A stretch of DNA of 23,784 nucleotides from a virus. The notes beneath the pieces are model-generated. The model searched no databases and had not been told where the DNA came from. It saw only the letters and a program-made list of their open reading frames with translations. The first letter of the stretch is position 1. Each line of letters starts with the position of its first letter. The stretch is from positions 118 through 23,901 of the IMG/VR virus record IMGVR_UViG_3300000101_000173; one strand, written 5' to 3'. Position numbers and translations under genes: made by a program. Shown piece after piece: positions 1,586 to 17,109 of this stretch.

Positions 1586-2779
1586 ATGTTTTTTTTATCT
1601 CATCCAAAACGTAATAATGCCCAAATCAGAATACATATATACGTTCCACTTGTAAAATCTCCTTATAAATATAACACTAAAAGAAACATAAATCCAAATG
1701 ATTGGGATTTCAAAAAAGGTAGACCCAAAAGTTTTCGTGGCGAAAATGGAAAACGAAATAGAAATTTAAATATTTTATTAAATGAGTATGTTAGAGCAAT
1801 AGAAAAAATCAAGGATTTATATGGGCAATCACTCACAAAAGAATTATTAAAGACCAAATTAGATGAATATTTCCACGTAGTTGTTAAAATTGAAGATAAT
1901 ACAATTCAATATCATTGGAATAAATACATCAATGAAATTAAGGTTTCAGGGAAAAACGATATTCAATCAATAAAACATTATCATAGAATTTATAATAAAT
2001 TGATTCATTTTCGAGGGAAACAAAAAACAGAATTAAAAGATTTGAACGATGACTTTTTTATTCAATTCATTGTGTTTTTAAGGAATGAATATAATTTAAA
2101 TGATAATACCTTGCATCGGAATTTAAACTATTTCAAAACGTTTTTAAATTGGTGTATCAAAAAAGGATTTGAAGTTCCTAAAGACTTTAAAAACATAAAC
2201 GTTCAACCTTATGAAACGGATGATATTGCGTTAACTGAAGCGGATTTAGATACCCTAGCAGGGCTTGAACTTGATGGTAAATTAGAATTGACACGGGATT
2301 TATTTCTGATCGGTTGTTATAGCGGTCAACGATATTCAGATTATAGCGTTTTTGAAAAAGATGACATTCAAGGAGACATGATAATCAAACGAGCTGAAAA
2401 AACAGAAACAAATTCATTTATTCCATTACATCCCAAGCTGATCAAGATATTGGATAAATACGATTGGGAGATTAAAACAACATCAAGTCAAAAATTCAAT
2501 CAACATATTCAAAGTGTTTGTAAAATGGCGGGTTTTAATGAAATTATAAAAAATACTATATATAAAGGATCACAAAAAGAGGTAATAAAAAAGGAACGTT
2601 GGGAAATGATCGGTTCACATACTGCGCGGCGTACGTTTATAACCATAGCAGCAGAGAAAATGATGCCAGATCATATAATAATGGCAATAACCGGCATTCG
2701 TGATCCTAAAACGTTGAATAAATACAAGAAAGTAAACAAGCAATCAATTAAAGATTCTGCTTTTAATGTTTTTTCTTAA
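1586..2779 (+). CDS. int: Tyrosine recombinase (phage integrase)
   Basis: This 397-residue protein has the three-part layout of Bacteroidota phage integrases: an N-terminal arm-DNA-binding domain (about 1-95), a core-binding helical domain (about 105-205) and a catalytic domain (about 215-397). Visible catalytic residues are R249 (SGQRYSDYS), K271-region beta-hairpin lysines, H345 and R348 (SHTARRTF), and the nucleophile Y380 (LNKYKK). The usual second His/Trp (TGH) is replaced by Ile at 371 (ITGIRDPKT), an uncommon but tolerated change in the family. The enzyme would integrate and excise the phage at the attachment site just upstream. The ATG at 1586 is followed by TTTTTTTT and lies against the right arm-site repeat. 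The 3' end overlaps the convergent regulator gene by 17 bp. Confidence 0.92.
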   Translation: MFFLSHPKRNNAQIRIHIYVPLVKSPYKYNTKRNINPNDWDFKKGRPKSFRGENGKRNRNLNILLNEYVRAIEKIKDLYGQSLTKELLKTKLDEYFHVVVKIEDNTIQYHWNKYINEIKVSGKNDIQSIKHYHRIYNKLIHFRGKQKTELKDLNDDFFIQFIVFLRNEYNLNDNTLHRNLNYFKTFLNWCIKKGFEVPKDFKNINVQPYETDDIALTEADLDTLAGLELDGKLELTRDLFLIGCYSGQRYSDYSVFEKDDIQGDMIIKRAEKTETNSFIPLHPKLIKILDKYDWEIKTTSSQKFNQHIQSVCKMAGFNEIIKNTIYKGSQKEVIKKERWEMIGSHTARRTFITIAAEKMMPDHIIMAITGIRDPKTLNKYKKVNKQSIKDSAFNVFS

Positions 2780-3377
2780 TTGTTTGATGTTTTCCTAATT
2801 CTTCTTTAGGTGGCAATATTGTATTAATAAACGTTTGAACTTGTCCATGATTTTCTTCGCTATCTTTCATGTGATTAGCTAATTGTTCTCTAACACCATT
2901 CCAAGCATGAGTAGTTTTTATAATCGCTAAAACGTCTTGATGTAAGTCAAGCATTTGTTGACGTGCTTTATTATTTGATTCTTCTAATTGATTTAATTTT
3001 TGAAAAAAATGATTAGTCATCGTTGCTTGATTTAAAGCAGCATCTTTCATCTCATTTTTCATTTCAATTATCGCTTTGGTGTTATCCATCAATTGTTCAT
3101 TATTTAAATTATTATTTGAATTTTCTTCACTTTTTGACACTTCATTAGTAATATGCCCATTTAATATATACGGAATATCTAGCGTATTAAAACGCTCTTT
3201 GATTTTCCTTAGCAATTTAGGGCTTGGCTTGTGTCCTTCTTTAAATATTTTGTACAACGTCCTCCTACTTGATTCCATTCCACACTCTTTGGCTATTTCA
3301 GGAATTGATAAGCCCGTTTTGTTTAAAAACTCAATTAATCTTTCGTTTGAGTTCGCATTTTTTCCATTTAAAGACAT
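2763..3377 (-). CDS. XRE-type HTH regulator with coiled coil (lysogeny repressor candidate)
   Basis: The 204-residue product starts with a helix-turn-helix domain (about 11-75; LSIPEIAKECGMESSRRTLYK covers the helices), followed by a polar, Asn-rich linker (80-100). A heptad-rich coiled coil (about 98-156) comes next, then a charged tail ending KKKH. There is no LexA/CI-type S24 peptidase domain, so RecA-triggered self-cleavage is not expected. The coiled coil probably drives oligomerisation. It is the only leftward gene in the window and sits between integrase and the early operon, the usual place of a phage repressor. Its upstream region holds a dyad (3407-3418) that could be its own operator. 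A helper for integration or partition is the alternative. Confidence 0.7.
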   Translation of the reverse strand: MSLNGKNANSNERLIEFLNKTGLSIPEIAKECGMESSRRTLYKIFKEGHKPSPKLLRKIKERFNTLDIPYILNGHITNEVSKSEENSNNNLNNEQLMDNTKAIIEMKNEMKDAALNQATMTNHFFQKLNQLEESNNKARQQMLDLHQDVLAIIKTTHAWNGVREQLANHMKDSEENHGQVQTFINTILPPKEELGKHQTIKKKH

Positions 3378-4351: not shown

Positions 4352-4897
4352 ATGAACACAGAACAAAGATTATCAAATTTAAAATCCACAAACATTAAAG
4401 GCAAGCCCTATGTAATGGTAGATCAAAGGCTTTCACATTTAGCACGATATTCAAATTATGATGTGAAAATCAAAAAAGTCAAATACTATAACGATATAAA
4501 AACATGGGTTGTTCAAATCTCTTTAAAAGTTCAATGGAATAGCAACGAATTTTACAACACCTATGAAGGCGTAGCACAAGAAGTAATTGGAGAGGGCATG
4601 ATCAATAAAACATCAGCACTTGAAAATTGTTATACATCGGCATTAGGTAAAGCTTGTGCAAGTGCAGGAGTCGGTTTACAACATGGAACTGCCTCGGGAG
4701 ATGAGGTATTAAAGGCACAAGCAAATAGCGATCGCATAGACGCGGGATTCAATTCAATACTTGAGCGTTTAGATGATTGGAAAAAGAAATATCCGGAATG
4801 GACAACATTTATAAATAAAGCTCAAAAAGAATTTAATTTATCTAATGATCAGGTAGATCAACTTTCAAAATTATGGGCAATTAAAAAAGCATCATAA
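4352..4897 (+). CDS. Putative ssDNA-annealing (ERF/Sak-like) recombination protein
   Basis: The 181-residue protein contains KTSALENCYTSALGKACASA (about 86-105), preceded by a beta-rich stretch with WVVQISLKVQW and YEGVAQEVIG. This TSALENxxTSALGRA-type pattern recurs in phage single-strand annealing proteins of the ERF/Rad52-like superfamily and in related phage replication proteins. The last 50 residues form a helical Lys-rich tail with no acidic SSB-type end. Its place before replication genes, with an OB-fold SSB later in the operon, fits a recombination role. The identification rests on that motif and context, so it is moderate. Confidence 0.5.
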   Translation: MNTEQRLSNLKSTNIKGKPYVMVDQRLSHLARYSNYDVKIKKVKYYNDIKTWVVQISLKVQWNSNEFYNTYEGVAQEVIGEGMINKTSALENCYTSALGKACASAGVGLQHGTASGDEVLKAQANSDRIDAGFNSILERLDDWKKKYPEWTTFINKAQKEFNLSNDQVDQLSKLWAIKKAS

Positions 4898-5484
4898 TGG
4901 GTAGAGTTGTAGAATTATTTAATGATCAAATGCAAAAATGGTCAAGAATGGATGGATTTAACGAACAAGAAATTTTTACACAAGAAGAAGAAATGGAACA
5001 CACTAATAAATTAATGACAATTAGCACAACTAAAATGAAAACAAAGCTTTTCATCGAAAAAATTCAAGAAGAAGTAATAGATGGAATTATCGATCCATTA
5101 ACTGCTTATGTAACACTCCATGACATTAAAACAAAACTTGAAAACGTTACAAAAAACATAAAAGATTTAGCCATTGAAGAATCTTCTAAGTATGGGAAAA
5201 CTTTTGATTATCACGGTTATACTGTAACAAATAAAGATGGTGCTAAAAGATTCGATTATACAAATGTTCCTGAAATAGCAGAACTAGAAAAACAATTAAA
5301 AGAACGCAAAGAATTTTATAAAAAAGCAAAGTTATCAGCAGACGCGGGTGGTTGGTCTGATATTGAAACATTGCCAGATGGCACAACGCGTGAAGTGTTT
5401 CAAGATTCTAATAATGAATTGCTTGTTGCTCCAATTATTAAATATGGATCGGCAAGTATTACAATAACAAACCTAAATAAATAA
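4897..5484 (+). CDS. Hypothetical phage protein with coiled coil
   Basis: The start overlaps the previous stop as TAATG. The 195-residue product has an acidic N-terminus (1-40) and a helical, probably coiled middle (45-100, KTKLENVTKNIKDLAIEESSKYG). A short beta segment with a GYTVT core follows, then a charged helix (about 128-150) and a hydrophobic end (IIKYGSASITI). Similar proteins occur in the replication/recombination region of Bacteroidota phages, and I do not know their activity. Tight coupling to the annealing candidate suggests a joint role. Confidence 0.65.
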   Translation: MGRVVELFNDQMQKWSRMDGFNEQEIFTQEEEMEHTNKLMTISTTKMKTKLFIEKIQEEVIDGIIDPLTAYVTLHDIKTKLENVTKNIKDLAIEESSKYGKTFDYHGYTVTNKDGAKRFDYTNVPEIAELEKQLKERKEFYKKAKLSADAGGWSDIETLPDGTTREVFQDSNNELLVAPIIKYGSASITITNLNK

Positions 5485-5490
5485 TCAAAT

Positions 5491-5528
5491 AAAGGGGGTG
5501 GATCAAGTGGCATTGAATATCCCCCTTT
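5491..5528 (+). ncRNA. GC-rich stem-loop whose loop is complementary to the 9101-9114 leader
   Basis: AAAGGGGG (5491-5498) and CCCCCTTT (5521-5528) form an 8-bp perfect stem in an otherwise AT-rich gap, closing a 22-nt loop. Loop bases 5499-5512 (TGGATCAAGTGGCA) are the exact reverse complement of 9101-9114 in the leader of the next operon. The stem is followed by only TTTAAAA, so it may be a weak terminator or processing site. A regulatory RNA role is inferred; the structure and the match are seen directly. Confidence 0.5.
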
Positions 5529-5544
5529 AAAAACACCAATTAAA

Positions 5545-6066
5545 ATGGCAAAAGCAAAGATAAATAAACGTTTGAAAATCGAAATGGATATTAATTTAAA
5601 ACGTATTCAATTAGAGTTAAATGATATGTTTGGCATAGATATTATGGAAAAAAATAGGGGTATTGATTACGTTACAGCAAGAGAATATTTTGTTAGATAT
5701 GTAAGCGGTAGATTTGAAAGATACTCCACATCTCAAATAGGCGCGTACATGAATAAAGATCACGCGACAATTTTACACGCTAGAAAAAAATTTGAAGATC
5801 ATTCTTTCATAGATGAATCTTATAGAGAAAAAGCTCATCATATTTTTCTAAAACTTGATTTGATAATGAATCAAGAATTAACAATGCAACCGATCAAGGA
5901 TCAGATTATCAATTACGTTCGACAATTAGACGCTTTAGCCGTTAAACAATTATGGGATTTATTATTAGATGATACACCTAATTTGATTGATTTAATGCAG
6001 CAAATTAATTCTGATTATTACGGTGTTTTAAGAACAGAAGAACCCATAAATCAAATTTCAAAATAG
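5545..6066 (+). CDS. DnaA domain IV-like DNA-binding protein
   Basis: Residues 45-90 match the DNA-binding domain IV of DnaA. An open helix region AREYFVRYVSGRFERYSTSQIGAYMNK leads into the signature KDHATILHARKK (71-82), equivalent to the DHTTVLHA-type motif that contacts DnaA boxes. There is no AAA+ ATPase domain, and at 173 residues the protein is far shorter than DnaA. The C-terminal 80 residues are helical and of unknown role. Such DnaA-C-like proteins occur in flavobacterial phage replication modules. It may mark the phage origin or compete with host DnaA. It is followed by the DUF1376-like replication protein. Confidence 0.75.
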   Translation: MAKAKINKRLKIEMDINLKRIQLELNDMFGIDIMEKNRGIDYVTAREYFVRYVSGRFERYSTSQIGAYMNKDHATILHARKKFEDHSFIDESYREKAHHIFLKLDLIMNQELTMQPIKDQIINYVRQLDALAVKQLWDLLLDDTPNLIDLMQQINSDYYGVLRTEEPINQISK

Positions 6067-6123
6067 CGTTCGACCCCGAAATCAAACGCAGTCAACGGGC
6101 GTTGTTTTTAAACCTTTCAACGC
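6066..6123 (+). promoter_or_regulatory. Four alternating complementary segments, attenuator-like
   Basis: GCGTT (6066-6070), AACGC (6085-6089), GCGTT (6099-6103) and AACGC (6119-6123) follow one another. Segments 1:2 and 3:4 can pair, or 2:3 can pair, so the hairpins exclude each other. The 3:4 stem is longest (GGCGTTG 6098-6104 with CAACGCC 6118-6124). The 2:3 hairpin is followed by GTTTTTAAA. The layout resembles an attenuator between two replication genes. It could also be an origin-type repeat. Confidence 0.35.
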
Positions 6124-6145
6124 CTAATGACATAAATTAAAACAA

Positions 6146-6862
6146 ATGAGCAAAGACCCAGCATTTTTAATGTATTCAAATGATTTTTTAACGGGAGTAG
6201 CTGAATTAACAATGGAAGAACGTGGTCAATTTATAACGTTGTTGTGTTTACAACATCAAAAAGGGGCAGTTTCAGAGAAATTAATGCGATTGCAATGCCA
6301 TGGTATTCCGAGCGCAGACGTTTTAAATAAGTTTCGCATAGATAAAAACGGAAATTATTTTAATGAACGTGTTGAATCAGAACGAGAAAAACGAAAAAAA
6401 CATTCAGAAAAACAACGAGCAAACGCAATGGCACGTTGGGATAAAAAGAAAAATAATAACAATAAAACTTCATTAAATAAACATACCAATGGCAATGCCA
6501 TGGCAATGCCTTTAGAAGATGTAAATGTAAATGAAAATGAAATTGATATTGAAGTTATAAATGAAATAGAAATTTATCCAACGTTTGAAGATTTTTGGAA
6601 TTTATATGATAAAAAATCAGGTAATAAAAACATCATAAAAAAGAAGTTTAACAAATTACCTCAAAAGATAAAAAATAAAATAATGGATTATTTACCTGAA
6701 TACATCGAATCCACTCCAAATAAAACATATCGAAAAAACCCACAAACATTTTTAAATAACAAAGGTTGGGAAGATGAAATAATTAACAATGGAAATACAA
6801 AGAACAACACGGAGCCAAATTACGGAAGACTTGAATCAATCCTCAATTCTTCAAATTTCTAA
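6146..6862 (+). CDS. DUF1376-like phage replication protein
   Basis: The N-terminal 95 residues (PAFLMYSNDFLTGVAELTMEERGQFITLL) match the DUF1376-type winged helix region found at the start of many phage replication initiators. A low-complexity, Asn/Lys-rich linker follows (about 95-145), with MAMP and NVNVNEN repeats. The C-terminal 90 residues carry a replisome-type pattern, FWNLYDKK...LPEYIES...YRKNPQTFLNNKGW, seen in phage replication proteins that cooperate with helicases. The end overlaps, in another frame, the open frame of the next gene only upstream of that gene's likely ATG at 6879. Role: initiation or helicase loading during phage replication, inferred from the family. Confidence 0.75.
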   Translation: MSKDPAFLMYSNDFLTGVAELTMEERGQFITLLCLQHQKGAVSEKLMRLQCHGIPSADVLNKFRIDKNGNYFNERVESEREKRKKHSEKQRANAMARWDKKKNNNNKTSLNKHTNGNAMAMPLEDVNVNENEIDIEVINEIEIYPTFEDFWNLYDKKSGNKNIIKKKFNKLPQKIKNKIMDYLPEYIESTPNKTYRKNPQTFLNNKGWEDEIINNGNTKNNTEPNYGRLESILNSSNF

Positions 6863-6878
6863 TCCTAAATTGACTTTA

Positions 6879-7307
6879 ATGAATTCTGCAATTACAACAA
6901 TAGCCGACGTACTTAAACAAAAAGGTCATCCATCAATAGCAAAGATGTCTAGAGAGTATTCAAAGCCTAAAATGCAGCTAATTATTATTAAATGGTTAAT
7001 GGAAGTAAATAAACTACTGAATTTAAAAAAACCCATGAGCGAAGATCAAATTGTTATGGGTGCTTCTTACATCATGGAAGATTATAAAAATTTAAATGTA
7101 GCTGATTTAACCGTTTTCTTTAAAAGATTATTAAAGGGAAAATATGGGCAATTTTATGAATCGTTTTCAATTCACAAATTATGCTCGGCTCTTGATATGT
7201 ACGTTGATGATCGGCTTGAAATAGCGATTGAGCGATCACAATCAAAACACAATAAATTTATTTCAGATGATCCAACAGCTGAAAGAACATCAAAACGAAG
7301 ATCATGA
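6879..7307 (+). CDS. Small replication-module protein, possible helicase loader partner
   Basis: I place the start at the ATG at 6879 (MNSAITTIADVLKQ), 16 bp after the previous stop. The frame itself is open from 6789, but that part would overlap the DUF1376-like gene. The product has 142 residues, is helical and basic, and contains MGASYIMEDYKNLNVADLTVFFKRLLKGKYGQFYE, a pattern I associate with a family of small proteins in Bacteroidota phages and plasmids near replication genes. The C-terminus is charged (ERTSKRRS). The stop overlaps the next ATG (ATGA). The exact function is not known. Confidence 0.65.
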   Translation: MNSAITTIADVLKQKGHPSIAKMSREYSKPKMQLIIIKWLMEVNKLLNLKKPMSEDQIVMGASYIMEDYKNLNVADLTVFFKRLLKGKYGQFYESFSIHKLCSALDMYVDDRLEIAIERSQSKHNKFISDDPTAERTSKRRS

Positions 7308-7462
7308 CAAAAGAAAAAAACACTTGCGGATTTTGTGGGCGTGAAAACCCCGTAGACAATTTTAATTGCGAACACGAAGATTGTGGCGCACCGATGGATT
7401 TAAACATTGAGTATTTATCTAATTGGGAAGGTCTCCCAACAATAACACACAAAAAAAAATAA
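7304..7462 (+). CDS. 52-aa zinc-ribbon protein
   Basis: An ATGA overlap with the previous gene opens a 52-codon frame. It holds two Cys pairs, CGFC (8-11) and CEHEDC (22-27), which form a CxxC-x10-CxxxxC zinc-ribbon-like knuckle. The rest is short and polar, ending HKKK. Such mini zinc ribbons are often nucleic-acid-binding or regulatory proteins in phage early operons. It fills the gap exactly and ends 5 bp before the cupin ATG, which supports it as real. Confidence 0.65.
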   Translation: MTKEKNTCGFCGRENPVDNFNCEHEDCGAPMDLNIEYLSNWEGLPTITHKKK

Positions 7463-7467
7463 ATCAA

Positions 7468-7812
7468 ATGAAAACAGGAAAAGTTTGGGGTACGACTGAA
7501 ATGATCCATAAAAATGGTGTCCTAGAATTTCATAGAATAGAATTCGATAAAGGCGCGAAATGCTCGGAGCATGAGCATAAAAACAAATGGAATGGGTTTT
7601 TTGTTGAAGCTGGTCAAATGCTGGTCAGATCATGGAAAGCCGATCAAAGCCTTATTGATGAAACAATTTTATATGCTGGCGAATTTACCATGGTAAAGCC
7701 GGGAGAATTTCATCAATTTGAAGGATTAGAATCTGGAGTTGCATTCGAGATTTATTGGGCAGAGTTTAGTCATGAAGATATTAATAGAAGGACATCAGGA
7801 ACAGCATCATGA
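7468..7812 (+). CDS. Small cupin-domain protein
   Basis: I choose the ATG at 7468 (MKTGKVWGTTEMI) because it directly follows the zinc-ribbon stop. The frame is open upstream, but that part overlaps the preceding gene. The 114-residue product is a single cupin barrel. Motif 1 is H32-x-H34 (SEHEHKNKWNGFFVEAGQ) and motif 2 is PGEFHQFEGLESGVAFEIYW with its metal-binding His. Small cupins of this kind often act as sugar-phosphate or nucleotide-sugar isomerases or epimerases, or as sugar sensors. It overlaps the cytidylyltransferase gene by 4 bp (ATGA), so the two are probably translated together and may act in one small pathway. The reaction cannot be read from sequence. Confidence 0.75.
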   Translation: MKTGKVWGTTEMIHKNGVLEFHRIEFDKGAKCSEHEHKNKWNGFFVEAGQMLVRSWKADQSLIDETILYAGEFTMVKPGEFHQFEGLESGVAFEIYWAEFSHEDINRRTSGTAS

Positions 7813-8450
7813 AAATTTGTTTCGTAATACCGGCTAGAATAGACAGTACTAGAATACCTAAAAAAATGCTTTTAGATATTGATGGAAAGGCATTGATTAG
7901 ACACGTCTTTGATAATGTTAAATCTTGGGGATATGATACTAAAGTACTAACAGATTCTAAAGAAATTTATAATCAATTACCTAATGAAGATGTAATAATG
8001 ACAGGCGAGCATGAAAATGGTACAGCTAGAATTGCATCATTAAATTGGGATAATTATGATTATATAGTCAACATTCAAGGAGACATGATCGATATTAGTT
8101 TTGATGTGATTAGCGATCTATTTGAAAAGATTGAAGAACAAAACGTTTGGACATTTTATACAGAAGGAGCAGAACCGGATGATGTAAAACTTATACATGA
8201 TTTAGGTAATGCTAAATGGTTTACCAGACATCCTATCGGATATGGAGATAGACACCTCGGAATCTATGCTTACACACCGTTTGTTTTAAAACTATACAAA
8301 TTTATGGAAAACAAATATCCTTCAGAAAACTTGGAGCAAAACAGGATTTTAAATTATGAAGATATTGGAGTAATTAAAACACAATACAATGGAATTGAAA
8401 TCAACACTCAATTTGATCTTTGGCAATTAAGAAAACAAAAACTAACATAA
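7809..8450 (+). CDS. KdsB-like CMP-sugar cytidylyltransferase
   Basis: The 213-residue protein follows the KdsB family along its length. IPARIDSTRIPKKMLLDIDG (7-26) carries R10 and K19 at the positions known from E. coli KdsB, HENGTARIAS (68-77) matches HQSGTERLAE, VNIQGD has the metal-binding Asp at 92, HLGIYAY is at 149-155 and NLEQNRILN at 174-182. KdsB activates Kdo with CTP to CMP-Kdo for lipopolysaccharide. This copy is about 35 residues shorter than the bacterial enzyme. The C-terminal VDTPEDL is INTQFDL here, so the second metal Asp is Asn199. A changed sugar or reduced activity is therefore possible. It pairs with the cupin in the early operon. It may serve surface glycan change, virion glycosylation with the glycosyltransferase at 17115, or DNA modification. 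Confidence 0.8.
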   Translation: MKICFVIPARIDSTRIPKKMLLDIDGKALIRHVFDNVKSWGYDTKVLTDSKEIYNQLPNEDVIMTGEHENGTARIASLNWDNYDYIVNIQGDMIDISFDVISDLFEKIEEQNVWTFYTEGAEPDDVKLIHDLGNAKWFTRHPIGYGDRHLGIYAYTPFVLKLYKFMENKYPSENLEQNRILNYEDIGVIKTQYNGIEINTQFDLWQLRKQKLT

Positions 8451-8455
8451 ACAAA

Positions 8456-8593
8456 ATGAAAGAAAAAATGATAGAAAGAAAAGATTTACCCTTTGACTTT
8501 TGGAATCATAGCCTAAATCCGATAACAGGTTTTCACGTTGGAAGGTATCAACAACCATTTAGACCAATGAAAGAACAAGTAATAATTAAATAA
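8456..8593 (+). CDS. 45-aa hypothetical protein
   Basis: An ATG five bases after the cytidylyltransferase stop opens 45 codons (MKEKMIERKDLPFDFWNHS...), ending 9 bp before the SSB-like gene. The product is aromatic-rich (FDFWNH, GFHVGRYQQPFRP) and basic. No other frame explains the interval, and spacing fits the operon. No family is recognised. Confidence 0.5.
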   Translation: MKEKMIERKDLPFDFWNHSLNPITGFHVGRYQQPFRPMKEQVIIK

Positions 8594-8602
8594 ATAGAAA
8601 AA

Positions 8603-8956
8603 ATGATAATCAAACAAAACGCACAAATAGTAAAAATTAATGCAACCGAAGAAAAAGGTGCTAAAAATTTTAAAGTTAGAAAAGTTGTTTTCACATGGAC
8701 AGAAAATAATTACCCAAATTATTTAACGGTTGATGTTTTAGGAGACAAGGCGGATAACTTTGTTAATTATAACGAGAATGAAGACGTAATAATTGACTTT
8801 GCAGTCGGTGGGCGCAAATGGGATTCTCCCGAAGGAACAAAATATTTTAATCAAGTTACATTAATCGGAATAGAAAAACATTTATCCGATCATCAAAAAG
8901 AAGTCAAAGCAAATTTAGACGCTTTGTTACCTCCTGAAACGGATTTACCATTTTAA
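8603..8956 (+). CDS. SSB-like OB-fold protein (DUF3127 type)
   Basis: The 117-residue protein has the beta-rich pattern of a DUF3127/OB-fold domain: KNFKVRKVVFTWTENNYPNYLTVDVLGDKADNF, then DVIIDFAVGGRKWDSPEGTKYFNQVTLIGIEK (about 62-92). The tail is acidic and ends PPETDLPF, like the DDIPF tip by which bacterial SSB recruits partners. It probably coats single-stranded DNA during phage replication and recombination, together with the annealing candidate at 4352. It is the last gene before the strong terminator at 8988-9021. The family assignment is good; ssDNA binding is inferred from fold and tail. Confidence 0.8.
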   Translation: MIIKQNAQIVKINATEEKGAKNFKVRKVVFTWTENNYPNYLTVDVLGDKADNFVNYNENEDVIIDFAVGGRKWDSPEGTKYFNQVTLIGIEKHLSDHQKEVKANLDALLPPETDLPF

Positions 8957-8987
8957 AGTAGTTTTTTTCATAGTTAGTTTTTTGATT

Positions 8988-9021
8988 AAAACCTCGTTCC
9001 TAGCGGTTCGGGGTTTTTTTT
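8988..9021 (+). terminator. Intrinsic terminator ending the early operon
   Basis: AAAACCTCG (8988-8996) pairs with CGGGGTTTT (9009-9017), with one T-G wobble and a 12-nt loop. A run of eight T covers 9014-9021. It is the clearest intrinsic terminator in the window and separates the early operon from the NinG/late operon. Confidence 0.85.
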
Positions 9022-9070
9022 GTGAATAAGTTTATCACTTTAGGCATAACTACCGTTAAAACTCACTAAA

Positions 9071-9097
9071 AGTATATACACGCATATACTACCTTTA
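9071..9097 (+). promoter_or_regulatory. Activator-type promoter candidate for the middle/late operon
   Basis: AGTATAT (9071-9077) and ATATACT (9084-9090) form a perfect 7-bp inverted repeat with a 6-bp spacer. It abuts TACCTTTA (9090-9097), one base off the Bacteroidota -7 element TAnnTTTG. No TTG is present 17-23 bp upstream; the dyad occupies that space instead. This suggests a promoter that needs an activator or an alternative sigma factor. It lies between a strong terminator and the NinG gene, where a new start is required. Confidence 0.45.
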
Positions 9098-9100
9098 TAG

Positions 9101-9114
9101 TGCCACTTGATCCA
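9101..9114 (+). promoter_or_regulatory. Leader element complementary to the 5499-5512 loop
   Basis: TGCCACTTGATCCA is the exact reverse complement of 5499-5512. It lies at or just after the expected transcription start and 15 nt upstream of the NinG ATG. Both copies are in plus-strand transcripts, so the RNAs could pair. Confidence 0.5.
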
Positions 9115-9128
9115 TGTAAAATATTATT

Positions 9129-9530
9129 ATGGATTATCAAAAATATAAAACAAAAACCCTTAGCCAATTAAAGGCAACTGCGGTTAGACACTTCCACAAA
9201 TTCATTCGTGAACGCGATAAAGATTTGCCATGTGTTTCATGTGGAAAATACACTACACTTCAAGCCGGACATTTTTACAGCGCGGGAAACTTTCCCGAAA
9301 CAAGATTTTCAGAACGCAACGTCCATGGACAATGTAAAAAATGCAATTATTATTTATCAGGCAATTTAATTCCATATCAAGATGAGTTAATAAATAGAAT
9401 CGGAAACGATCGTTTTGAAATATTGCAAAACACAATAGCAATGAGCAAACGAACAGGATTCAAATGGGATAGATTTTATTTGATTGAGATAATTGAAAAA
9501 TATAAAAAATTTAATCGATTAAATAAATGA
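9129..9530 (+). CDS. ninG: NinG/Rap-like recombination protein
   Basis: The 133-residue protein shows the NinG family pattern: an N-terminal helix region with AVRHFHKFIRERD, the zinc knuckle CVSCG (C35, C38) plus AGHFYSAG (H48), RFSERNVHGQCKKCNYYLSGN (C69, C72), and a basic C-terminal helix. NinG (Rap) of lambdoid phages is a structure-specific endonuclease acting on recombination intermediates, with an HNH-like metal site. Length is somewhat below that of lambda NinG (about 200), as is common in Bacteroidota phages. It is the first gene after the terminator at 9021. The stop overlaps the sigma-like gene (ATGA). Confidence 0.88.
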   Translation: MDYQKYKTKTLSQLKATAVRHFHKFIRERDKDLPCVSCGKYTTLQAGHFYSAGNFPETRFSERNVHGQCKKCNYYLSGNLIPYQDELINRIGNDRFEILQNTIAMSKRTGFKWDRFYLIEIIEKYKKFNRLNK

Positions 9531-10042
9531 CCCCTAATCAAAAAATAGAAGCCTTAGCGCGTAAACATCAAAAATGGTTAACCTATTGTAATCAATATTT
9601 AAATCAAGCCAATTCAATGTACGCTGAAGATGTTGTACAATCAGCTTATTTACAATTGCTACAAATATTTCATAAGGATAATGATAAAGAAGTTAACGAT
9701 TCATATTTCTATTTAATGTTGAGGTCTATAATGTTTAACGATTCAAAGCATTCAATTCAAACGGATGTTTTAACATATTCATTACAAGTTAATGAAAACA
9801 TTACTCCAAATGAGGTTGAAAAAACCAAACCAGATTACGTTGAAATGAAACCGCAGATTGATAGAGTTGTAAATACGTTTTATGAATTTGACAAATTACT
9901 TTTTAATGCTTACAGATACGAATTTAAATCAATTAGACAATTAAGTAAAGACACCAAATTGGGACATACAACAGTTTTTGAAACAGTTAAACGATGTAAA
10001 CAAAAGATTAACCGAAAATTAAAACACAAATATTATGAGTAA
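9527..10042 (+). CDS. Sigma-70-like factor, putative phage late-gene regulator
   Basis: The 171-residue protein has the two-domain layout of a small ECF-type sigma factor. A region-2-like helical domain (about 10-75) contains YAEDVVQSAYLQLLQIF. A region-4-like helix-turn-helix (about 115-163) reads FKSIRQLSKDTKLGHTTVFETVKRCKQKI. The linker (85-110) is polar. Region 2 lacks some of the strongly conserved aromatic residues of cellular sigma factors, so promoter melting may differ. It could direct RNA polymerase to phage late promoters, fitting the missing TTG element at 9071-9097. It overlaps both neighbours by a few bases. A sigma-like transcription activator is the main alternative. Confidence 0.7.
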   Translation: MTPNQKIEALARKHQKWLTYCNQYLNQANSMYAEDVVQSAYLQLLQIFHKDNDKEVNDSYFYLMLRSIMFNDSKHSIQTDVLTYSLQVNENITPNEVEKTKPDYVEMKPQIDRVVNTFYEFDKLLFNAYRYEFKSIRQLSKDTKLGHTTVFETVKRCKQKINRKLKHKYYE

Positions 10043-15174: not shown

Positions 15175-15743
15175 TGGATATAAAGAAGTTTAACGGCGTT
15201 TTAAAGTCTTTTGCACGTAATGTAGTTAAAGATGCAAAAAAGACCGCTAAAAAGAAGGAATGGGCGTTAGCTAATAAATTAAAATACAAAGTTGAAACGG
15301 GTAAAAATTCATTTACAATACAATTTACACCCGGATATGCTAAATGGGTTGATGAAGGAGTTAGCGGAGTTGATAATAAAATAGCGGGAGCTCCCAATTC
15401 ATTTAAACGAAAAGGTGGAAAAGGTTCTTTTAAAGGAATGCCACCAAGTTCAGCAATGGATAAATGGAATGTCAAACGCGGGATTAAAATTCGTGATGAG
15501 GCAACGGGTAGATTTTTACCTCGTAAATCAGCAAATTTCGCGATTGCGGTTAGTGTTTGGAAAAAAGGAATTAAACGATCATTATTTTTTACAAAGCCAT
15601 TTAAAAAATATTATAAAACGTTACCGACTGAATTATTGGATGCGTTTGATTTAGAAGTTCAAGAACTATTAAAACATACTTTCATAGATGGTATTAATGA
15701 AGATTATAAAAAAGCAGCTAAACGCGCTGATAAATTTAATTAA
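15174..15743 (+). CDS. HK97 gp10-like neck/tail completion protein
   Basis: I choose the ATG at 15174, overlapping the previous stop, over an upstream TTG. The 189-residue, very basic product carries YAKWVDEGVSG (about 58-68), GGKGSFKGMPP (about 85-95) and FFTKPFKKYYKTLP (about 146-159). These match the HK97-gp10-like family pattern (YAxxVExG followed by a Pro-rich loop and FLxPA-like end). Such proteins join the tail tube to the head connector. It lies before the fibre gene and after two other completion candidates. The assignment is by motif and position. Confidence 0.6.
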   Translation: MDIKKFNGVLKSFARNVVKDAKKTAKKKEWALANKLKYKVETGKNSFTIQFTPGYAKWVDEGVSGVDNKIAGAPNSFKRKGGKGSFKGMPPSSAMDKWNVKRGIKIRDEATGRFLPRKSANFAIAVSVWKKGIKRSLFFTKPFKKYYKTLPTELLDAFDLEVQELLKHTFIDGINEDYKKAAKRADKFN

Positions 15744-15747
15744 AATT

Positions 15748-17109
15748 ATGAGTAGAAAAATAAATGTAAGAAGCCCCTTTTATCTATTTATAGATGATTC
15801 AGGATTAAACGATGGTTCAACAACCACCACGTCAACAACAGAAGCAACCACAACCACAACCACAACGGTTGCATCTGGAACAACTTTTGGTTGTCCAACT
15901 TTAACAGGCGGTGGAATAGCACAAAATGGAAATATAACAGACCCAACACCATCAGCGGGAACAATCGTTGGAAAATCAGAATCATATCAAGGAGCATTAA
16001 TCACATCTATAACTGCTAATCATAATACATACAATGTAAATAAAACGTTGTATTTCAAAATACTTGTTCCAACCAATTCTAATTATACAAATTCAGGCGG
16101 TTACATTTGGTGCTCTAAACAATTTCCGCAACAAACAACAACACAAGCAACGACTACGCAAAGTGGCGGAGGTTTACCAATTTATACGTGTAATATCGCG
16201 AGTTTATCAGGAGGATCAGCATCAGCAAATGGATCGGTTACTTATCCAAGTGTAACAGGAGGACAAATTGTAGGGTTTTCGTTAACAGATCAAGGAACGA
16301 TTATACAAAATTTATCATCTAATACAGGTTCATCTGATTCAAATAAAGCGTTATGGTGGAAGATTCTACCAAATTCTAATTATAGTAATCAAGGTCAGGC
16401 GGTTTGGTGTCAGCATACCATTGTACAATCATATACAACAACAACACAGGCAACAACATCATTAAGTCCATATAATTATTATTTCATTCGTGGTTGTTCA
16501 GGAACAAATTACTCAAATCATGATATGGTAATTAGAACGTCTTCCACGTTGACAATAGACAATGTAGGAAGTTCAGGTAGTTATTCAACATTATCAATTT
16601 ATGGTTCTTGTTGGTATGCTTATAATTTAGCAACCGCTTCTCAATATACATCAAACGCGGGAAGTTTAAATTCTTCAACATACACCGGAACAATAACTCA
16701 AAATTCAAATTGTCCAACGTGTACAGGATCAGCAAACACTACACAAGGAACCACGCAACAACAACAATATTCTGAATTTTATTTATCAGCAGGTAGAAAT
16801 TCATTATCTGATTTTTGTAATACTTCTACTTCAGTTCAAAACATTGTAAGCGTTACAGGTTTAAATAGAACATATTCAACGGCATTAAATCAATATGTTT
16901 ATACGATTAACAATGGTAATGCCACAATCTTTAATGGATCAAATAAATGGTTTTTAGTTTATAATTCTCCAATGAATTTTTCGGGATTGGGATCATTTAA
17001 TTATTGGGAGATAACCCCACAAGGATATATTGTTTCTTCCGGTATTTATTCTGCGTGTTCATCAACAACGAGTAGTGGCGGCGGTGGTCAAATTGGAAAC
17101 GAATATTAA
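15748..17109 (+). CDS. Thr-rich modular fibre or surface display protein
   Basis: The start is the ATG at 15748 (MSRKINVRSPFYLFIDD). This VRSPFY-type opening recurs in flavobacterial phage structural proteins. The 453 residues form four beta-rich, Cys-containing modules joined by Thr-rich linkers at 24-46 (a run of Thr with few breaks), 128-141, 227-239 and 326-341. Modules 1 (47-125) and 2 (145-225) are clear repeats: GG...A.NG, QG..I, NK.L.(F/W)KIL, NSNY.N.G and a final WC. Module 3 (241-325) ends NCPTC, and module 4 (341-437) ends YSAC. A Gly-rich tail follows. The Thr linkers could carry O-glycans, and the next gene is a glycosyltransferase. Role: probably an adhesin or fibre on the virion. 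Confidence 0.6.
   Translation: MSRKINVRSPFYLFIDDSGLNDGSTTTTSTTEATTTTTTTVASGTTFGCPTLTGGGIAQNGNITDPTPSAGTIVGKSESYQGALITSITANHNTYNVNKTLYFKILVPTNSNYTNSGGYIWCSKQFPQQTTTQATTTQSGGGLPIYTCNIASLSGGSASANGSVTYPSVTGGQIVGFSLTDQGTIIQNLSSNTGSSDSNKALWWKILPNSNYSNQGQAVWCQHTIVQSYTTTTQATTSLSPYNYYFIRGCSGTNYSNHDMVIRTSSTLTIDNVGSSGSYSTLSIYGSCWYAYNLATASQYTSNAGSLNSSTYTGTITQNSNCPTCTGSANTTQGTTQQQQYSEFYLSAGRNSLSDFCNTSTSVQNIVSVTGLNRTYSTALNQYVYTINNGNATIFNGSNKWFLVYNSPMNFSGLGSFNYWEITPQGYIVSSGIYSACSSTTSSGGGGQIGNEY

Follow-up and report, generated by a model that had tools for sequence, protein, structure and literature searches.

A putative natural toehold-switch-like RNA pair linking the early and late operons of uncultured ninG-bearing phages

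The window examined in this study is the whole 23,784-nt stretch covering positions 118 to 23,901 of the virus record IMGVR_UViG_3300000101_000173, and it contains a hairpin in the early (replication) operon whose loop is complementary to the leader of the late ninG operon. The pair probably represents (probability about 0.77) a natural toehold-switch-like riboregulator in which the early hairpin would activate translation of the ninG operon. The loop-leader pairing itself is well supported by co-evolution across relatives, while activation, as the sign of the regulation, is predicted from a leader hairpin that appears to hide the ninG start codon.

As an earlier reading of the window from its letters alone (here the sequence-only reading) had claimed, TGGATCAAGTGGCA at 5499-5512 on the plus strand and the sequence at 9101-9114 are exact reverse complements. 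These two sites are the only matches to the word in the window at up to three mismatches, and the only ones in the 23.9-kb record at up to one mismatch. The word occupies most of the 22-nt loop (5499-5520) of a hairpin whose 9-bp stem, with five G-C pairs, is formed by TAAAGGGGG (5490-5498) and CCCCCTTTA (5521-5529); inside the loop, TCAA (5503-5506) and TTGA (5513-5516) form an inner stem that leaves an apical GUGGCA exposed. At the other site, the match stops 14 nt short of the ninG ATG (9129). Both elements are read on the plus strand and lie 3.6 kb apart. The chance of such a match had been put at about 1 in 100,000, which is too strong: 12 maximal inverted matches in the window reach 14 nt or more, compared to a mean of 6.1 under a Markov null. 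By length alone, then, a 14-nt inverted match is not rare, and only comparison with relatives could show whether it is significant. Its meaning comes from the short, non-coding nature of both elements and, to a greater degree, from relatives, which use different words and yet stay complementary.

Relatives of ninG were gathered from viral contigs, the DnaA-C-like gene that directly follows the hairpin was located by iterated hidden Markov model searches, and the 120 nt 5' of that gene were compared with the 50 nt 5' of ninG. This comparison covers 28 distinct hairpin/leader pairs (L088 and L013 positioned manually), all from uncultured phages, in which the leader of the ninG operon begins with a segment complementary to the loop 5' of the DnaA-C-like gene. 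The hairpin is found in the same position in nearly all family members with differing stem sequences, and L099 has only a weak AT-rich stem. The word pairs differ widely between phages, with each phage retaining its own match, and even the more distant ninG relatives with very different words show the same loop-leader relation. Own loop-leader pairs had a mean energy of -24.6 kcal/mol versus -12.2 kcal/mol for mixed pairs. When loops alone were permuted among 23 representatives, none of 200,000 permutations reached the observed total (z = -11.2), and permutation of whole upstream regions gave a z of -10.5; the own partner does not rank first in every case, since related phages have words that are alike. 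When the 50-nt leader was compared with the upstream 2-9 kb in those first-round loci of this ninG class that were complete upstream, its strongest partner was the loop of the hairpin before the DnaA-C-like gene in all but L016, at energies of -25 to -36 kcal/mol where the background averaged about -9. In a gene-blind scan that set every loop of a G/C-stem hairpin against every open reading frame (ORF) leader, the pair took first place in 19 of 23 loci; it came second at equal energy in L011 and third in L135 and L088, and no G/C hairpin was found in L099. The two elements are also absent jointly: L016 lacks the hairpin and its leader is very short, while L025 and L026 have neither element.

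The nature of the differences between loop and leader, counted in the best 13-nt span with wobble unfavoured in the scoring, indicates which molecules are in contact. Fourteen differences were of the G.U type (in plus-strand RNA), one was of the A.C type and 13 were transversions. The bias of 14 to 1 corresponds to a p of about 0.001, a value that is indicative only, because several wobbles lie at the edge of the span and related phages are not independent. Protein sites would yield both kinds of transition equally, so the observed bias argues for plus-strand RNA-RNA pairing and not for protein sites. Sisters in the ninG tree show compensated transversions: CGGAC/GTCCG is replaced by CCGAC/GTCGG between L129 and L131 (loop CTAATCGGAC and leader GTCCGATTAG versus CTAATCCGAC and GTCGGATTAG), and GACCA/TGGTC by GAGCA/TGCTC between L073 and L082 (loop GATGACCAAGC and leader GCTTGGTCATC versus GATGAGCAAGC and GCTTGCTCATC). 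Compensated changes also occur between L098 and L126, L095 and L099, and L019 and L020. The sequence-only reading had offered two models and looked to compensatory changes in relatives to separate them; own pairs far stronger than shuffled ones, the wobble bias and the compensated sister transversions strongly support its trans-acting RNA, while its pair of inverted DNA sites for a phage protein is unsupported. No relative was seen that keeps both elements and loses their complementarity.

The direction of the regulation is suggested by the leader itself, in which the sequence-only reading had missed a predicted hairpin that hides the ninG AUG and takes its 5' arm from the complementary segment; the position of this arm would provide both a direction (activation) and a mechanism. 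In the window, the predicted probability that the AUG is unpaired rises from 0.02 in the free leader to 0.73 with the complementary segment occupied. Over 23 leaders the mean predicted probability is 0.15 (70% of them below 0.1), compared to 0.65 (3% below 0.1) for 359 further ORF starts from these loci (p = 2e-11) and 0.47 for shuffled leaders, and the AUG is paired in 18-19 of the 23 predicted leader structures. The stem partners co-vary at positions -1, -2, -4 and -5 and in codon 2, with variants including ATCCAT/ATGGAT in the window, GCCCAT/ATGGGC in L141, TAGCCAT/ATGGCTA in L135 and CATCAC/GTGATG in L082. The overlap of the 5' arm with the loop-complementary segment varies and is small in L095, L135 and L143; when that segment is made unavailable, the mean predicted probability increases from 0.15 to 0.77. 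Moreover, the early loop often contains a small inner stem, and the six or so nucleotides that it exposes (GUGGCA in the window) match the leader at its extreme 5' end; it is plausible that these apical nucleotides make the first contact.

These elements can be combined into a switch. The late mRNA would start at about 9102, as predicted from the -7 box TACCTTTA and the start spacing known from Flavobacterium johnsoniae (PMC6847099, which also supplies the Bacteroidetes-type consensus TAnnTTTG), and the complementary segment would then form its 5' end; in L013 and L014 the equivalent place has a perfect TATCTTTG box. The leader would then fold with the ninG AUG paired to an anti-start arm (9108-9115), keeping translation off. 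Transcripts of the early operon would carry the hairpin (5490-5529), whose loop (5499-5512) would first bind the toehold (9101-9107), the unpaired 5' terminus of the late mRNA, and next displace the anti-start arm over 9108-9114; this would expose the AUG, so that late translation would begin only after early mRNA builds up. The order of the operons makes this an early-to-late link, and because the second gene of the controlled operon is ECF-sigma-like, the switch may gate late transcription too; this gene would presumably be turned on downstream of ninG. Since the hairpin is not a standard terminator, the polycistronic early mRNA may itself serve as the trigger, the other candidate being a processed small RNA. 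A terminator-derived small RNA was rejected for want of a consistent U-tract, although L020 and L011 have U-rich 3' arms in their stems. A wider form of this proposal, to which we give slightly better than even odds, is that a widespread family of phages times the early-to-late shift by an mRNA-to-mRNA toehold switch, in which an intercistronic hairpin of the replication mRNA, with no dedicated small RNA, strand-displaces a late start-codon hairpin, the late products include a sigma-like factor, and the word pairs have diversified into many partly orthogonal variants.

Several points weigh against the explanation proposed here. In L007, L011 and L020 the AUG lies just outside the stem, with a predicted probability of being unpaired already at 0.64-0.76; the predicted opening is modest in L019 (0.33) and L023 (0.49); and in L135, L143 and L136 the pairing touches just the outer pairs of the start-codon stem. 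The early hairpin is followed by 0-2 U in all 23 loci, with no consistent U-tract, and so does not resemble an intrinsic terminator. The loops used in the loops-only permutation and in the wobble counts were delimited by hand, from which the gene-blind scan is free. The phages form a large group, all members of which are uncultured, and their probable Bacteroidota hosts are assigned from promoter type and gene relatedness. Finally, the predicted duplex ends about 5-18 nt 5' of the AUG, where it could hinder the 30S subunit unless cleaved or tolerated. Cleavage of the duplex, for example by RNase III, would leave a short open leader comparable to the very short leader of L016, although this is speculation.

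A duplex at this distance could itself hinder the ribosome. The main rival is repression by the same RNA-RNA pairing, with the early hairpin blocking ninG translation or triggering decay until early RNA declines. The duplex would lie in or near the 30S footprint, and the antisense RNAs sar of P22 and OOP and aQ of lambda are repressive (PMC12197685, a review of phage small RNAs); however, repression would leave unexplained a co-varying stem that hides the AUG and whose 5' arm is the very target of the loop, and both states would be off, which makes it unlikely. The pairing might also act in reverse, with the late leader RNA binding the early hairpin and shutting off or cleaving the early replication operon. 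This would suit the intercistronic position of the hairpin, 15-40 nt 5' of the DnaA-C-like start, and a duplex that could be an RNase III site, but the start-codon stem whose sides co-vary belongs to the late leader and not to the early gene; as the sole explanation it is improbable, and it could operate alongside activation.

Explanations without RNA contact are more remote still. Two inverted DNA sites for one regulator, for instance the adjacent DnaA-C-like protein, could drift together with the protein, and the sites are located at that gene's own leader and at the late promoter, with the gene following the hairpin and being strongly variable among phages. The strand-specific wobble bias, the conserved hairpin context and AUG stem, the fixed relative orientation and the lack of further copies in the record make this very improbable. 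A chance match in an AT-rich genome, for which the 12 inverted matches against about six expected might speak, is scarcely credible when the pairs of related phages stay complementary with different words, and it is refuted by the permutation test. Activation of ninG-operon translation by the early hairpin is the preferred explanation.

The genes and elements around the pair in the window are as follows.

4352, plus strand: gene of the phrog_11717 family.
4897-5484, plus strand: ORF 5' of the hairpin in the early operon, with no significant Pfam or NCBIfam match.
5490-5529, plus strand: putative early-operon trigger hairpin (stem 5490-5498/5521-5529, loop 5499-5520).
5499-5512, plus strand: loop segment (putative trigger) complementary to the ninG leader.
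5545-6066, plus strand: DnaA-C-like (helix-turn-helix) gene directly 3' of the hairpin (Pfam Bac_DnaA_C, E 2e-6; NCBIfam DnaA, E 1.8e-7; both below cut-off).
6146-6862, plus strand: replication initiation/primosomal-type gene (phrog_9327, E 1.5e-17).
8603-8956, plus strand: SSB-like (DUF3127) gene, the last of the early operon (phrog_4932, E 1e-14; PF11325, E 1e-14).
8990-9021, plus strand: terminator-like hairpin and U-tract between the early operon and the ninG promoter, read from the sequence.
9090-9097, plus strand: Bacteroidetes-type -7 element TACCTTTA, matching TAnnTTTG at 7 of 8 positions.
9101-9114, plus strand: leader segment complementary to the loop, of which 9101-9107 is the predicted single-stranded toehold at the mRNA 5' end.
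9108-9136, plus strand: predicted start-codon hairpin, in which TGATCCAT (9108-9115) pairs with ATGGATTA (9129-9136), including the ninG AUG.
9129-9530, plus strand: ninG, for a Holliday-junction/Rap-type endonuclease (PF05766, E 6e-34), with which the controlled operon begins.
9527-10042, plus strand: ECF-sigma-like gene, second in the controlled operon (NCBIfam TIGR02937, E 1.3e-7, below the curated cut-off).
12416, plus strand: gene related to phage large terminases.

The gene order around the ORF at 4897-5484 is also found in L007, L017 and L023, and terminator-like sequences precede the ninG leaders of many relatives. An ECF-sigma-like gene is likewise second in L007 and L023 (TIGR02937, E 8.8e-8 and 1.6e-8, both below the curated cut-off), and the protein encoded at 9527-10042 is a candidate phage late sigma factor. 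In L013, an extra ORF (about 5163-5552) lies between the switch leader and ninG, indicating that the leader belongs to the start of the operon and not to ninG itself; L015 looks alike. Near the leader in the window, a start-stop ATGTAA at 9113-9118, 5' of the ninG start, overlaps the end of the complementary segment. Directly 5' of the -7 box, a perfect inverted repeat (GTATAT-ACACGC-ATATAC, 9072-9089) that is not evident in the upstream sequences of relatives is possibly an operator or late-promoter element. The replication operon also carries an unusual cargo, a cytidylyltransferase-family gene at 7809-8450 (CTP_transf_3, E 1e-21). Elsewhere, an integrase-like ORF (judged by eye) beside a divergent helix-turn-helix repressor-like gene (phrog_8, E 2e-6), at 1586-2779 and 2763-3377 (minus strand), suggests a temperate phage, and the structural region at 15688-17109 encodes a long Thr/Ser-rich protein with threonine runs.

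Searches were also made beyond this family. A direct DNA search of phage records for cultured relatives found nothing, and the pair is absent from the regions examined in Riemerella phage RAP44 and Olleya phage Harreka_1. A strong-looking match in Flavobacterium phage Fpv5 (-28.4) was taken as chance, both sites being inside annotated coding regions. Among bacterial genomes, a first scan gave none and a second gave one close contig, L190, which is binned as a SAR86 genome. Its ninG belongs to this group and comes with the leader and a promoter of Bacteroidetes type, while the upstream part is missing; L190 is possibly a mis-binned phage contig. The window's DnaA-C-like protein found no relatives as a query, and the DnaA-like proteins of single relatives retrieved mostly near copies, with the pair kept where both ends were present. 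Remote ninG families (L106, L116, L152-L155, L170 and others) have no such leader. Two contigs from the same metagenome, L209 on the hairpin side and L004 on the leader side, match over about 16 nt by eye and are possibly two pieces of related phages.

The early-to-late control of phages is usually credited to proteins such as sigma factors, antiterminators and polymerases. The switch proposed here would connect replication genes with the late operon through RNA only, in many uncultured phages, and co-evolution gives direct evidence of the contact. It would also work in bacteria without Shine-Dalgarno initiation, and it would be a natural counterpart of a synthetic-biology device with more than 20 natural trigger/target variants. 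Like synthetic toehold switches, it has a single-stranded 5' toehold followed by a hairpin sequestering the start codon, together with a trans RNA complementary to the toehold and 5' arm that is predicted to open the hairpin by strand displacement. Unlike these devices, the phage pair is natural and shorter (a trigger of about 11-16 nt), its trigger lies in the loop of a stable hairpin, there is no Shine-Dalgarno sequence and the duplex is nearer the AUG. Only engineered toehold switches were found in the literature, a search outside which most subscription journals lay, so that the lack of a published natural example is unproven.

Elements from six sources had no Rfam match at or above the gathering score. 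As in anti-antisense activation of rpoS by DsrA and RprA, a trans RNA would pair with an inhibitory leader arm and free the translation start, although those RNAs are host-encoded and Hfq-dependent and pair far 5' of the AUG in long leaders. RNA-OUT of IS10 is a cis-encoded antisense RNA that represses RNA-IN, and its stable stem-loop likewise pairs through the loop with the 5' end of the target mRNA, whereas the phage RNAs come from separate loci and activation is predicted; an IS10-like cis antisense was rejected, as both elements are on the plus strand and 3.6 kb apart. The nearest phage precedent found is the RNA IsrK of the Gifsy-1 prophage, which pairs near the ribosome-binding site of a phage operon and thereby activates its translation (PMC4825925). 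Like the RNA proposed here, IsrK is encoded by a phage, makes the ribosome-binding site of another phage gene accessible and feeds a phage regulator; however, IsrK is an enterobacterial prophage small RNA from the same transcript as its target operon, acts via a short upstream ORF, has no 5'-end toehold, and belongs to unrelated genes (isrK-orf45-anrP) with another layout and phage type. An IsrK-type activator was thus rejected, with different genes and phage type and no Rfam match of any kind. In the part of the phage small RNA review drawn on here (PMC12197685), sar of P22 and OOP and aQ of lambda also control phage mRNA at developmental switches, but they are encoded opposite or overlapping their targets and are repressive, and that part lists no early-to-late trigger of the present type. 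Trans-acting antisense RNA that activates translation is a known kind of regulator; what appears to be new is the present family, together with its position in the phage cycle and its variants, which co-evolve.

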